IMG/VR virus record: IMGVR_UViG_3300046787_000408
Coordinates: 235,984-299,983 of that record
DNA length: 64,000 nt
Source of the DNA: a virus
Strand: one strand, 5' to 3'
In this document: positions 45,792 through 59,285 of the stretch, one piece after another
How positions within the stretch are numbered: the stretch's first letter is position 1
Layout: every line of letters begins with the position of its first letter
Translations under genes and position numbers: made by a program
Notes under the pieces: model-generated
Database searches by the model: none
Seen by the model: only the letters and a program-made list of their open reading frames with translations
What the model was told of the DNA's origin: nothing

Positions 45792-46039
45792 AAACAACAA
45801 AACCACCTATTGAACATCAAGACCTGTTTGGACAGGCCCTGGAGGTTGGCGACTGTGTGGTGTATCCACGTAGCAACAGCATGACAGTGGGCACAGTGGC
45901 CAAGCTCAATCCCAAGATGGTCGGCGTTAAAAGTGTCGGCCATAGCTGGGGCAACTGCAACAAGTATCCACAGGAGCTGGTGAAAGTTTCGGGTTCAGAA
46001 GTCACAATGTATTTGCTGAAAAAGATGTCCAAGGCTTGA
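45788..46039 (+). CDS. small SH3-like hypothetical protein
   Basis: An 83-residue protein whose pattern ALEVGDCVVYPRSNSMTVGTVAKLNPKMVGVK (in part) suggests a KOW/SH3-like barrel. Last gene of the small-gene operon. Its stop overlaps the -35 of the next promoter. Confidence 0.55.
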   Translation: MKTTKPPIEHQDLFGQALEVGDCVVYPRSNSMTVGTVAKLNPKMVGVKSVGHSWGNCNKYPQELVKVSGSEVTMYLLKKMSKA

Positions 46040-46064
46040 CACTAAATAAAAACCCTGTTACAAT
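46036..46064 (+). promoter_or_regulatory. promoter for the first tRNA pair
   Basis: TTGACA at 46036-46041, 17-bp spacer, TACAAT at 46059-46064, ending 9 bp before the first tRNA. Confidence 0.7.
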
Positions 46065-46073
46065 AGTTTTTTA

Positions 46074-46148
46074 GGGCCAATAGCTTAATGGTAAAGCAGT
46101 CGACTCATAATCGATTGAGTCTAAGTTCAATTCTTAGTTGGCCCACCA
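46074..46148 (+). tRNA. tRNA-Met or Ile2 (CAT)
   Basis: Acceptor GGGCCAA/TTGGCCC, loop CTCATAA with anticodon CAT, T arm CTAAG-TTCAATT-CTTAG, encoded CCA. Whether it is elongator Met or lysidine-modified Ile cannot be told from sequence. Confidence 0.88.
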
Positions 46149-46153
46149 AACAT

Positions 46154-46228
46154 CTGGCGTTCGTATAATGGATAATACACGGGTCTTCTAAGCCCTTTAT
46201 ATAGGTTCGATTCCTGTACGCCGGACCA
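46154..46228 (+). tRNA. tRNA-Arg (TCT)
   Basis: Acceptor CTGGCGT/ACGCCGG, loop CTTCTAA with anticodon TCT for AGA, encoded CCA. Confidence 0.85.
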
Positions 46229-46292
46229 CTATAGTATAAATTATTTCAATTACAGCAATAGAAATAATTTCAGACAAAAACAATGAATCTGC

Positions 46293-46321
46293 TTGATTTC
46301 ATTGCTATATACTATTACAAT
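46293..46321 (+). promoter_or_regulatory. promoter for the AhpC gene
   Basis: TTGATT at 46293-46298, 17-bp spacer, TACAAT at 46316-46321. The leader that follows has a CTCAGT/ACTGAG hairpin and AAGGAAA before the ATG at 46374. Confidence 0.65.
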
Positions 46322-46373
46322 AAACACTCAGTATAAACACTGAGACTCAACATTTTAACACAAGGAAATCAAA

Positions 46374-46943
46374 ATGAAAACAGTTGGCGATAAATTGGCC
46401 CCATTCGCAGTCACCGGCGTTCGTCCCGGTCAACCTGAAGATGCGTTTTATACCATCACAGACACCAGCTTTGAAGGCAAGTGGAAAGTAATCGTTTACT
46501 ACCCCAAGGACTTTACATTCGTATGCCCCACAGAAATTGTAGCTTACGACAAGTTGGCACAGGACTTTGCTGATCGTGACGCAGTGTTGCTCACAGGTTC
46601 AACAGACAATGAGTTCTGCAAAGTGGCTTGGCAAAATGCACACGCTGATTTGAAGAAGATCACACACCACCAGTTTGCTGACACACAACGTGCCACCTAC
46701 GATGCTGCAACCAACACAGTAAAGAACCTGAGCTTGATTGAACAATTGGGTGTGTTCTATGCTCCAGCTGGTGCCGCACTTCGTGCCACATTCATTGTTG
46801 ATCCCAACAATGAGATCCAACACGTTACAGTCAACAACTTGAACGTGGGTCGCAGTCCAGAAGAAACACTTCGTGTGTTGGATGCATTGCAAACAGGTGA
46901 ACTGTGTGCTTGCAACCGTACAGTTGGCGGCGAGACACTGTAA
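46374..46943 (+). CDS. ahpC: AhpC-type 2-Cys peroxiredoxin
   Basis: A 189-residue thiol peroxidase that reduces H2O2, organic peroxides or peroxynitrite. The peroxidatic Cys is C51 in FTFVCPTE. The resolving region is GELCACNR with Cys at 178 and 180. GSTDNEFCK near 75 is also AhpC-like. Length matches bacterial AhpC (about 187). It has its own promoter, and an AhpD-like reductase lies three genes downstream, an arrangement that can recharge AhpC without AhpF. Confidence 0.93.
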   Translation: MKTVGDKLAPFAVTGVRPGQPEDAFYTITDTSFEGKWKVIVYYPKDFTFVCPTEIVAYDKLAQDFADRDAVLLTGSTDNEFCKVAWQNAHADLKKITHHQFADTQRATYDAATNTVKNLSLIEQLGVFYAPAGAALRATFIVDPNNEIQHVTVNNLNVGRSPEETLRVLDALQTGELCACNRTVGGETL

Positions 46944-47567: not shown

Positions 47568-47966
47568 ATGTTGGATTGTTTGATCATTGGGGATAGTATT
47601 GCAGTGGGCACACACCAAGCAAGACCCGAGTGTGTGGCCTATGCCAAAGGCGGCTGGAATACCTGGCAATGGAATCGCGAATACTTGAACAAAGATTTGT
47701 CTGCCCGGACAGTTATTATCAGCTTGGGCAGTAACGACCACAAGGGCGTACGAACCCGAGCAGAGTTACAACGTATTCGTGAGAAAGTTGGAACAACTGC
47801 TAGAGTATTTTGGATCTTGCCTGCAATCAATCCAGACATTCAAGCAACAATCAAAAGCATGGCGGCAGAGTACGGAGATTCTGTACTGCCAATGACTCGT
47901 TTACAAAAGGATGGCGTACATCCTAGCTGGGCGGGTTATAAAGAATTAGCGGAGAAAACAAAATGA
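47568..47966 (+). CDS. SGNH hydrolase
   Basis: A 132-residue minimal SGNH/GDSL hydrolase: GDSIAVG near 8 (nucleophile Ser), the GGW block near 28, GSND near 54 and DGVHPSWAGY near 114 with catalytic Asp and His. All four blocks are present despite the short length. It would cut acyl esters. The stop overlaps the AhpD-like start. Confidence 0.8.
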   Translation: MLDCLIIGDSIAVGTHQARPECVAYAKGGWNTWQWNREYLNKDLSARTVIISLGSNDHKGVRTRAELQRIREKVGTTARVFWILPAINPDIQATIKSMAAEYGDSVLPMTRLQKDGVHPSWAGYKELAEKTK

Positions 47967-48478
47967 CAACATGGGTAGATCAACTCAAAGAAACCATCCC
48001 TGACTATGCCAAGGATACTCGACTCAACATTGACGCTGTGATCAAACGTTCGAGCTTGGCTCCTGAATTAGCTGAAGCTATTGCTCTAGCGGCAGCATTT
48101 GCCACAGGCAACACCAAGCTGTGGACCTGGATTCACAGTGTGTTGGCAGACCGCAAAGAAGCTGATGCAGCACTGACCGCTGCCTCAATCATGGCTCAAA
48201 ACAACGTTTGGTATCCATTCGTTGAAATGGCAGATGATCCTGCTTTAGCCGGGTTGCCTGCACAGTTGCGCATGAATGCTATTGCAAGTCATGGTGGAAC
48301 AACCAAGGCCAACTTTGAAGCTTACAGCTTGGCCGCAAGTATTGTGGGCAAGTGCCATTTCTGTGTAAAAGCTCACTATGAGACTTTGAAAGCAGAAGGT
48401 TACACTGTGGAACAACTTCGCGACATTGGACGTATTGCCGCAGTAGTTACCAGCACTGCCCGAGTGTTAGCCAACTAA
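47963..48478 (+). CDS. ahpD: AhpD-like alkylhydroperoxidase (carboxymuconolactone decarboxylase family)
   Basis: A 171-residue all-helical protein with the CHFC redox pair at 131-134 followed by AH at 137-138, the C-x-x-C-x3-H active site of AhpD. The family regenerates AhpC and has weak peroxidase activity; the length is close to mycobacterial AhpD (177). Overlaps the SGNH gene by ATGA. With AhpC it forms a self-contained peroxide-reduction pair in a phage. Confidence 0.85.
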   Translation: MTTWVDQLKETIPDYAKDTRLNIDAVIKRSSLAPELAEAIALAAAFATGNTKLWTWIHSVLADRKEADAALTAASIMAQNNVWYPFVEMADDPALAGLPAQLRMNAIASHGGTTKANFEAYSLAASIVGKCHFCVKAHYETLKAEGYTVEQLRDIGRIAAVVTSTARVLAN

Positions 48479-50196: not shown

Positions 50197-50376
50197 ATGA
50201 TTATCAACATCCATTTACAAAATACATTGTGGCAAACTCAAACCATACCAGGCCCTGGCTACAACGTCACAGAAATTCTGGACAGCATTGAAAGTGCTCG
50301 TGAGGCTGGTGAGCTGAATTGGTTGTTGTGGGATCAACCCTTACGGCTTGACATACAAGTCGTAGAGCCGCTATAA
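50197..50376 (+). CDS. small hypothetical protein
   Basis: A 59-residue ORF (MIINIHLQNTLWQTQTIPGP start) with alternating hydrophobic residues. The tmRNA promoter lies within its 3' end. No motif. Confidence 0.5.
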   Translation: MIINIHLQNTLWQTQTIPGPGYNVTEILDSIESAREAGELNWLLWDQPLRLDIQVVEPL

Positions 50377-50377
50377 T
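50348..50377 (+). promoter_or_regulatory. promoter of the permuted tmRNA gene
   Basis: TTGACA at 50348-50353, 18-bp spacer, TATAAT at 50372-50377. Transcription would begin near 50384, just before the acceptor piece. Confidence 0.7.
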
Positions 50378-50383
50378 ACAAGT

Positions 50384-50448
50384 TATTGCTGTATGAAGCA
50401 AAGAGAAAAGGATTCAAGACGCGGGGGCAGTGCCCGCCAGGTCCACCA
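50384..50448 (+). ncRNA. ssrA: permuted tmRNA, acceptor (3') piece
   Basis: Ends GACGCGG then CCCGCCAGGTCC and ACCA, the standard tmRNA 3' tail. The T arm is GCGGG (50421-50425), loop GGCAGTG, CCCGC (50433-50437). CAGGTCC (50438-50444) pairs through all seven positions, with one G-U, with GGGCCTG at 50669-50675 downstream. The 3' half therefore precedes the 5' half, as in two-piece tmRNAs of alphaproteobacteria, some betaproteobacteria and cyanobacteria. The exact 5' end is not defined. The T loop lacks the usual TTCGA. Confidence 0.85.
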
Positions 50449-50460
50449 TAAGGAAGTTTG

Positions 50461-50667
50461 ATGAGTCGTAGTAGTCCATGGTTAAGTAAAGATAGTCCAA
50501 AAACTCTCAAGGAGTTTTATATTGAACTACACCCAGATTGGGTAGAGATTGATGGTCAGTACTTAACTGAGGATAGATGGAACGACATCGAACCAGAGAT
50601 ACTGGTTGCCATGAAGCGAGAATATGTTAAGTGTTCTGAACTTCTTGGTTGGCAAGTTTCTTTATGA
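50461..50667 (+). CDS. ORF inside the intervening segment of the permuted tmRNA gene
   Basis: A 68-residue ORF (MSRSSPWLSKDSPKTLKEFY start; in-frame TTG at 50458) with TAAGGAAG 5-6 bp upstream. It begins 13 bp after the CCA of the acceptor piece and stops 1 bp before the 5' end of the coding piece, filling the intervening segment exactly. The acidic C-terminal half includes WNDIEPEILVAMKREY. No family recognised. Translation of the precursor before RNA processing, or from the excised segment, is implied. Confidence 0.6.
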   Translation: MSRSSPWLSKDSPKTLKEFYIELHPDWVEIDGQYLTEDRWNDIEPEILVAMKREYVKCSELLGWQVSL

Positions 50668-50668
50668 T

Positions 50669-50880
50669 GGGCCTGACACAGGATCGATTGGGTCAAGAGT
50701 AACAGAGTGGACAGCACGGCATGCAATCACCGACACAAGATTCTGAATCAAGGCTAGTCTTTGGTAGTAGGAACGACTTGGAAAACGAAGTAAACAAATT
50801 AAACGCAAACGACTCACAGTTCGCATTGGCCGCCTAAACGTAGCCTAGGGTAAGACATACCTCGTAACAGAAACTCAAGG
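50669..50880 (+). ncRNA. ssrA: permuted tmRNA, coding (5') piece with tag ANDSQFALAA
   Basis: Begins GGGCCTG, pairing with the acceptor piece, followed by the GGATCGATTGGG stretch typical of the tmRNA D-like region. A tag reading frame starts at GCA 50805: codons for A-N-D-S-Q-F-A-L-A-A and TAA at 50835-50837. The ALAA end is the canonical proteolysis signal. A terminator follows at 50882. Tagging would rescue stalled ribosomes and mark products for ClpXP. Confidence 0.9.
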
Positions 50881-50881
50881 G

Positions 50882-50898
50882 CCCACTTCGGTGGGTTT
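50882..50898 (+). terminator. intrinsic terminator after tmRNA
   Basis: CCCAC-TTCG-GTGGG stem with a UUCG tetraloop followed by TTT; only a short T run, so efficiency is uncertain. Confidence 0.6.
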
Positions 50899-50916
50899 CC
50901 TACTGAAAGGACTACT

Positions 50917-55939: not shown

Positions 55940-56850
55940 TCCGGGGCAGTTTAATGTCCTACTAGGTAGCTTGCTATCTAGTGAAGAATAAGCTGAGTGA
56001 TCAGCCCAAAGGAGGTATGCCTACATAACTCCGCCAGCAATGGTTCGTTTAGACAAGCCTGCTCAGACTCGCGAGAGTCCCTTTACTGATAAGACCGGTG
56101 GAGGTAACAATGACGCTGGATGTTGTGGAAAGAACGTTTGCTTACCGGCCCGCAAGGGTAACCGGAGCAGATGGAAAGTAACAGGTGGTGCTGACTTCAC
56201 AACTAAACCAGTCCAGTTAATTGGTATGAGAAAGGGTAGTGTATTTGTCCGAGGTGTTGCAACCAAGGGCTCGTATGCAGTTTGAGTGGTTGGTGGATTG
56301 GCAGCAATGTCAAGACGCAGATCGCAAAAGACGACTGAGTAGTTCGCAAGACGAAAGGTACGTGGTGTGTTGTATTGTGTATTCCAAAAGAGTATGCAGC
56401 AACTGAGTCAGCACATCGCAGTAGGTTGTTATAAGCTAATGGTAAGCTAACTCCCTGTTAAGGAGTCGACTGCGGGTTCAACTCCCGCTAACGATTAAAA
56501 TGCAAAGACTGACTCGGTCGTATGTGAAAAGCATCTAATACTTGAGGCGCAAGCTAATCAAGTCAGACGTAACTCGCAAGGTGAAATCTGTTTATGCTGG
56601 AAGTTTCGTAAGGTGTTAGCGCACTTGAATGGCTCGCAAGGTCAACGGGATAGATGGCGTAGAATAGCATACGGCGACAAGACTACTGCCTGTCTTTAAA
56701 AACGGCGATGCTGATAGCAGACATGGATACCTGGCAACAGGGCTGTGTGGAAGTCGAGAGAAAGCTGGCTCGCAAGGCTGGTAATAATGCTCGAGGTGCT
56801 ATTGGGAGAGATGTATTCTCAGTCCTCCACTATTCTAAAACACATTACAT
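55940..56850 (+). ncRNA. large ornate structured RNA, GOLLD-like candidate
   Basis: About 0.9 kb with its own promoter and no convincing coding frame. It is full of short hairpins: CTAGGTAG-CTTG-CTATCTAG near 55960, ACTC-GCGA-GAGT near 56068, CCC-GCAA-GGG near 56151, and repeated CTCGCAAG GNRA loops near 56575, 56634 and 56770. A tRNA-Asn sits inside at 56425. Size, phage setting, tRNA neighbourhood and embedded tRNA recall GOLLD RNA (lake- and Lactobacillales-derived), but I cannot confirm the family without a covariance search. Ends are approximate. Confidence 0.6.
56425..56495 (+). tRNA. tRNA-Asn (GTT) embedded in large RNA
   Basis: Acceptor GTTGTTA/TAACGAT (two wobble pairs), D stem AGCT/AGCT, stem ACTCC/GGAGT, loop CTGTTAA giving GTT, T arm GCGGG-TTCAACT-CCCGC. 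No CCA encoded. It must be excised from, or function within, the surrounding transcript. Confidence 0.8.
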
Positions 56851-59207: not shown

Positions 59208-59285
59208 GGGGGTATAGTGTTAACGGTTTAGCACAGCGGACTTTTAATCCGCCAGGTCAGGGTTCGAATCCCTGTGCCCCTACCA
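59208..59285 (+). tRNA. tRNA-Lys (TTT)
   Basis: Acceptor GGGGGTA/TGCCCCT, stem GCGGA/TCCGC, loop CTTTTAA, CCA. Confidence 0.92.

Follow-up and report, generated by a model that had tools for sequence, protein, structure and literature searches.

Intervening sequences of phage permuted tmRNAs as a probable slot for exchangeable small genes

Few bacterial RNAs have been studied as much as tmRNA, whose two-piece form has so far been seen as an oddity of processing with a spacer that is discarded. The locus described here raises the question whether such a spacer might hold a gene and, if so, what this gene does within a tmRNA. The locus lies in a window of 64,000 nt (the whole stretch of DNA that was analysed), the end part of a virus record of 299,983 bp (IMGVR_UViG_3300046787_000408, positions 235,984 to 299,983). 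An initial annotation made from the letters alone had proposed a phage-encoded, permuted two-piece tmRNA with a protein-coding ORF exactly filling the 220-nt intervening sequence (IVS) between its halves, preceded by a promoter and followed by a terminator. We consider it likely that the IVS of this phage permuted tmRNA serves as a slot for exchangeable small genes and that the tmRNA precursor doubles as an mRNA. Our confidence in the slot is high across the family and moderate for the window's own ORF.

The tmRNA locus and its open reading frame

The covariance search that the initial annotation had suggested as a check scored well over background. The Rfam model RF04321 (tmRNA_permuted) matches positions 50387-50837 with 97.4 bits (E 1.1e-17) against a gathering cut-off of 47, the two pieces being separated by about 220 nt, and RF01849 (alpha_tmRNA) also matches the locus (55.9 bits, gathering cut-off 50). 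ARAGORN did not call a tmRNA at 50387-50837. Direct reading of the sequence revealed that all seven acceptor pairs, including G3.U70, form between the pieces and that the CCA is encoded 3' of the T-arm. The T loop, GGCAGTG, differs from the usual loops of tRNAs and is close to those of the bacterial permuted tmRNAs sampled (GGCGGTA, GGCAGTA). The tag ANDSQFALAA-TAA is the most frequent one among the relatives, and the same geometry of acceptor, CCA and T-arm was found in 298 relatives with the acceptor strand GGGCCTG among the matches listed. By score and parts the window tmRNA is a typical RF04321 member. The annotated permuted two-piece structure and phage origin were confirmed, and the virus record contains a major capsid gene of T4 type. 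The features of the locus are listed in the table.

Table. Features of the permuted tmRNA locus, in coordinates of the window
Feature	Position	Strand	Basis and remarks
Sigma-70 consensus promoter TTGACA-18-TATAAT	50348-50377	+	12/12 positions; overlaps end of upstream ORF 50197-50376
Acceptor (3') piece	50387-50448	+	Start of RF04321 match and direct reading
T-arm GCGGG-GGCAGTG-CCCGC	50421-50437	+	Direct reading
3' acceptor strand CAGGTCC; discriminator A; CCA	50438-50444; 50445; 50446-50448	+	Direct reading
IVS (220 nt), putative cassette slot	50449-50668	+	Same position in about 300 relatives
IVS end helix, 5' strand UAAGGAAGUUU	50449-50459	+	Covariation; paired in predicted fold; includes Shine-Dalgarno
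ORF, 68 aa, MSRSSPWLSKDSPKTLKEFYIELHPDWVEIDGQYLTEDRWNDIEPEILVAMKREYVKCSELLGWQVSL	50461-50667	+	ATG 50461, TGA 50665-50667, Shine-Dalgarno AAGGAAG
IVS end helix, 3' strand AAGUUUCUUUA	50654-50664	+	Covariation and predicted fold; also encodes C-terminal VSL
TGAT tail, from helix to G1	50665-50668	+	Sequence; stop codon inside
Coding (5') piece	50669-50837	+	RF04321 match; acceptor strand GGGCCTG 50669-50675, D-like region with ATCGAT, tag frame 50805-50837
Probable terminator hairpin CCCAC-TTCG-GTGGG, then TTTCCT	50884-50902	+	Sequence only; weak T tract

The annotated promoter was recovered with a full consensus match, and among 276 distinct upstream regions from relatives, 91 score 11 or 12 of the 12 promoter positions, compared to one after shuffling. 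The terminator stood in part: a hairpin is visible near 50884-50897, but the terminator scan makes no call at 50884-50902, where the hairpin misses its T-tract rule. An intron-form tmRNA was considered and rejected, with no match to an intron family in the window, an uninterrupted T-arm and no nuclease domain in the ORF.

Some neighbouring features are recorded as well. The 59-aa ORF upstream (50197-50376), without a family match, is preceded by AATAAATACC, which resembles a late promoter, and its stop codon overlaps the -10 box of the tmRNA promoter. Genes for an AhpC/TSA peroxiredoxin (46374-46943) and a carboxymuconolactone-decarboxylase-like protein (47963-48478), both accessory genes of redox type, lie between tRNAs and the tmRNA. 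A GOLLD RNA (RF02032, 192.6 bits) at 56362-56825 encloses a tRNA-Asn (56424-56497), and a tRNA at 59208-59282 (Rfam 61.8 bits, no ARAGORN call) belongs to a cluster of about 38 tRNA genes.

The 68-codon ORF fills the IVS exactly as annotated, with a good Shine-Dalgarno (SD) right behind the CCA and its TGA ending 1 nt short of G1 of the coding piece. Two close relatives with 93% identity were found in IMG/VR, both within permuted tmRNAs, and the reading frame is intact in all three copies. In one of them (L004) the IVS differs from that of the window at 9 of 220 positions and the tmRNA halves are strongly diverged. The protein had no convincing match in Pfam, PHROGs or a PDB fold search, and its AlphaFold2 model (pLDDT 78) was searched against the PDB without a match. 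Homologues were sought in named phages, plasmids and bacterial genomes with no convincing result, and no DNA relatives of the locus were found in named phages. The three copies differ by 7-9 base changes, mostly non-synonymous (dN/dS 0.7-1.4); because these are too few for a selection test, the coding status of the window ORF rests on its context and open frame.

Two kinds of intervening sequences in phage permuted tmRNAs

About 300 phage permuted tmRNAs were collected among the matches listed; loci may be redundant, and the counts given here are not population frequencies. A scan with the 3' edge CCAGGTCCACCATAAGG gave about 115 permuted tmRNAs among the matches listed, nearly all with an ORF starting at the SD of that edge, and these ORFs were mostly different from each other. 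Because this pattern contains the SD, three further scans were made without it, one per T-loop class. In these SD-unbiased samples 38 of the 48 distinct IVSs with 130 nt or more count as coding by a strict rule, compared to 5.6 expected when the IVS interior was dinucleotide-shuffled with both ends kept, and most of the remaining ones contain ORFs that have a weaker SD or start later. Below 80 nt, only 2 of 85 IVSs are coding. Since long IVSs are mostly coding and short ones rarely are, phage IVSs are of two kinds, short structured ones and coding ones. Many IVSs of 25-120 nt carry no ORF, and the longest reach 491 nt. Two long IVSs of the automatic list (L512 and L560) were discarded as artefacts of the geometric finder that included a neighbouring T-arm.

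Single ORFs cover 27 of 37 IVSs of at least 200 nt (0.5 expected from shuffling) and 25 of 30 IVSs of 130-200 nt (2.0 expected), among the matches listed. These numbers bear on the view that only some other IVSs are coding and that the window's frame arose by chance in a non-coding spacer, for which the dN/dS near 1 across its three copies could be taken as a sign. We regard this as quite improbable: the SD, start, length and TGA-T-G1 ending of the window are the same as in coding cassettes, coverage of this kind is expected by chance in about 0.5 of 37 IVSs of comparable size, and all three copies keep the frame. The annotated fit of the ORF to the IVS thus exceeds shuffled chance.

The 91 coding IVSs with a length of 80 nt or more (among the matches listed) fall into 44 protein clusters, and in 56 of the 91 the stop codon is a TGA 1 nt ahead of G1. 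Among the IVS tails examined, TGAT occurs in 171 and TAAT in 27 (among the matches listed). Some IVSs (L151, L164, L203, L223) hold two ORFs. Pfam identified thioredoxin (4e-21), DUF2061 (3.5e-20), CxxCxxCC (1.3e-6) and GNAT (2e-6) domains, and the repertoire of more than 40 unrelated families also includes small membrane proteins. Two cassette proteins searched among named phages had no match there. Many of these ORFs are under purifying selection, with a third-position excess and dN/dS of 0.06-0.3 between homologous cassettes in most families (L367/L376 0.06; L161/L235 0.08; L132/L158 0.10; L163/L188 0.14; L163/L182 0.18). All 14 further ORF-bearing loci passed RF04321 with the IVS inside the match; L163 reaches only 40.9 bits, below the cut-off, and its near-twin L182 passes. 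A T4-type capsid gene was present in all five records tested.

This diversity also bears on the suggestion of the initial annotation that the ORF product could act on ribosome rescue, and likewise on an action upon the tmRNA. The position inside a tmRNA gene is all that speaks for such a role, which we hold to be most improbable because the slot is widespread and holds many unrelated genes, and is no single oddity. Thioredoxin, DUF2061, acetyltransferase-like and tiny membrane proteins share no theme, and neither a relative nor a fold was recognised for the window ORF.

Coding IVSs are not limited to one tmRNA lineage. Phage tmRNAs with the acceptor strand GGGGGCG and the T loop GGCAGTA carry them too (34 distinct ones of 80 nt or longer under a looser rule, among the matches listed), and some of their cassettes are homologous to those of the GGGCCTG lineage (YICINNYS family, DUF2061). 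The GGGGGCG lineage includes the cultured phage Melnitz, with an unannotated ORF, MFKWLSKTRLVVITRDYFRERNRKADAKIPKYLSG..., in a 142-nt IVS (L594 6077-6219; MZ577097, within 45984-46436). Relatives of this ORF were found in L620 and L652 (81% and 68% protein identity). As judged from substitution rates (L594/L620 dS 0.40, dN 0.13; L620/L652 dS 1.62, dN 0.27), the Melnitz IVS ORF is under purifying selection. The two-piece tmRNA of Melnitz (EXVC044M) shares with the window the phage origin, the permuted order, the end helix, the TGAT tail and an ORF in the IVS, but differs in its acceptor strand and in its ORF, which is a different one and reads into the 5' piece.

The bacterial permuted tmRNAs of Caulobacter type (RF04321, RF01849) agree with the window in piece order, acceptor pairing, CCA, tag frame and an IVS closed by a helix. 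Their IVSs, however, are short (5-47 nt, one of 115 nt, in 23 loci sampled) and hold no ORF in this sample, whereas phage IVSs are longer and often coding; the window does not follow the bacterial type of a short non-coding spacer, its 220 nt being filled by an ORF. Strong matches in Pseudomonadota cover no more than 332 nt, compared to 451 for the locus in the window. Bacterial genomes with the exact edge CCATAAGG gave 17 matches, of which the geometric test kept one; this sole survivor (in L240) had an IVS of 1141 nt and was judged implausible.

Two-piece tmRNAs in phages have been published before, as the accessible part of one report shows for Melnitz and for 53 of 133 phage tmRNA structures (PMC9004378). 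The same part mentions a glutamine riboswitch alongside the Melnitz tmRNA and describes no ORF in it. The claim of the initial annotation that known IVSs are short and non-coding was too broad: as far as its accessible text goes, a 2025 survey of 97,179 tmRNAs reports one IVS with a tRNA-Ala and one with a repeat, and describes no protein gene in an IVS (PMC11915505). The tRNA-Ala case is likewise a functional gene inside an IVS, but according to this text it is a single, nominally archaeal instance with a tRNA instead of a protein gene, and exchange is not reported. Group I intron tmRNAs with homing endonuclease genes, covered in the same text, also nest a protein gene in a tmRNA gene, but there in a self-splicing intron of the T loop and with one class of mobility proteins, in contrast to diverse proteins in a permutation spacer. 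No earlier report of ORFs in the IVS of permuted tmRNAs was found in the literature searched, which included few subscription papers. The novelty that had been claimed therefore holds for the protein-coding IVS and not for the phage two-piece tmRNA, which was already known.

Exchange of cassettes between diverged tmRNAs

Cassettes are swapped between tmRNAs. Among the matches listed, 23 IVS clusters each occur in more than one T-loop class, swapping being judged here by class, a crude label of descent, and not by tree. L182 and L501 differ at 1 of 382 IVS bases, and their 5' pieces are only 68% alike (between-class background 72%). Overall, cassettes with up to 99.7% identity occur in tmRNAs that share only about 70% of their halves, and the identity breaks off at the T-stem and, at the other end, just past the acceptor strand. 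IVSs without ORF are swapped too, as in L370 and L523 (identical over 97 nt); exchange is therefore independent of the presence of a gene. Relatives of several cassette families, e.g. thioredoxin, were also found free-standing on the same strand, 31-100 nt upstream of the acceptor piece of other tmRNAs (L105, L371, L261, L205, L177, L306, L340, L499, L369), so that cassette genes appear to form a local pool for which the IVS is one of the places occupied.

Near-identical IVSs with such sharp borders in diverged tmRNAs might also be expected if the IVS were a selfish mobile element that inserts itself into permuted tmRNA genes, with the ORF as cargo or mobility protein. We consider this improbable. 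The cassettes are mutually unrelated (44 clusters), those with an annotation are thioredoxin, DUF2061 and GNAT proteins and not nucleases, and a nuclease domain was not found in the window ORF either. IVSs without ORF are exchanged as well, cassette genes are also found on their own next to other tmRNAs, and the common flanks suffice for ordinary recombination. For the slot with exchangeable genes, the simplest route would be homologous recombination on the invariant edges, formed at one end by acceptor stem, CCA and SD and at the other by TTTATGAT-GGGCCTG. Different phages would carry different ORFs, with cassettes replaced as a unit. Integron cassettes work alike, with one expression slot for many interchangeable small genes, most of which have no promoter of their own; in the phages the edges would be those of the tmRNA acceptor stem.

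If the slot reading is correct, the spacer is a gene slot common to many aquatic phages that is exchanged whole between diverged tmRNAs. It would explain unannotated coding capacity, yield a catalogue of phage accessory genes that gene callers missed, and represent a natural expression platform within a stable-RNA gene.

As a separate observation, three pairs of ORF-less IVSs (L370 and L523, L261 and L436, L105 and L394) are 95-100% identical between diverged tmRNAs, and non-coding IVSs may have a function of their own.

The end helix and a possible link between translation and processing

The two ends of the IVS pair with each other at 10.03 of 11 positions, compared to 7.09 (maximum 7.38) when the 3' ends were dealt out, and in the SD-bearing subset at 9.80 compared to 8.12 (maximum 8.45). 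Counted over the first and last 10 nt, pairing is 9.34 of 10 in the GGGCCTG and 9.18 in the GGGGGCG lineage, with dealt-out values of 6.63 and 6.30, respectively. Sliding the 3' strand by 1-3 positions lowers pairing to 3.4-6.4 across both lineages (4.2-6.4 in GGGCCTG). In coding IVSs the 5' strand of the helix is the SD itself, paired to a U-rich 3' strand largely via G.U, and the SD is also paired in the predicted fold of 50420-50700 (-98 kcal/mol, z -5.4). Covariation thus supports an IVS end helix that stacks on the acceptor stem and ends in TGAT.

We propose that a single transcript from the host-type promoter would run from the 3' (acceptor) piece through the ORF into the 5' (tag) piece, with the IVS as a stem-loop that has the gene as its loop. 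Cleavage at G50669, probably by RNase P, and 3' processing at the CCA (50448) would release two mature tmRNA pieces that would work with host SmpB; SmpB is taken to be the host's since no gene for it was found in the 14 phage records examined. The ORF would be translated from the precursor, before or during processing, or from the released IVS.

The initial annotation had also suggested that processing of the precursor could control the ORF. Such control by precursor folding or processing is plausible, because the SD lies within the conserved helix. An extension of our preferred explanation adds regulation to it: translation of the ORF and maturation of the tmRNA might exclude each other through the SD helix and a stop codon that abuts the RNase P site. 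With scarce free ribosomes the precursor would fold and mature to tmRNA, and with plentiful ones the ORF would be translated. This would fit the pairing well above the dealt-out control, also in the SD-bearing subset, its loss upon sliding in both lineages, the paired SD in the window's fold, the G.U pairs of SD and U-rich strand, as if both functions were kept, and the stop 1 nt ahead of G1 in 56 of 91 IVSs. However, ORF-less IVSs share the helix, so precursor folding alone explains it, and five IVSs have ORFs that start 23 nt in, behind a late-promoter-like box and outside the helix. We therefore consider mutual exclusion possible but rather doubtful, and our confidence that the helix gates translation against maturation is low because the helix also occurs in ORF-less IVSs. 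That the precursors are dual-function RNAs, in which nested-gene translation and tmRNA maturation compete through one helix with ribosome supply setting the balance, is accordingly put forward as a tentative proposal. With the ORF in Melnitz, the coupling of RNA maturation and translation on the same molecule becomes testable in a cultured phage.

The five IVSs with the later start (L130, L170, L183, L228, L454) share an ATAAATA box, similar to T4-type late promoters, between the SD and the start codon, within the first 40 nt of the IVS. Their ORFs begin with MRI[KN] or MQINEI, reminiscent of a capsid-targeting N-terminus. Judging from the position of the box, these ORFs may be expressed late as well.
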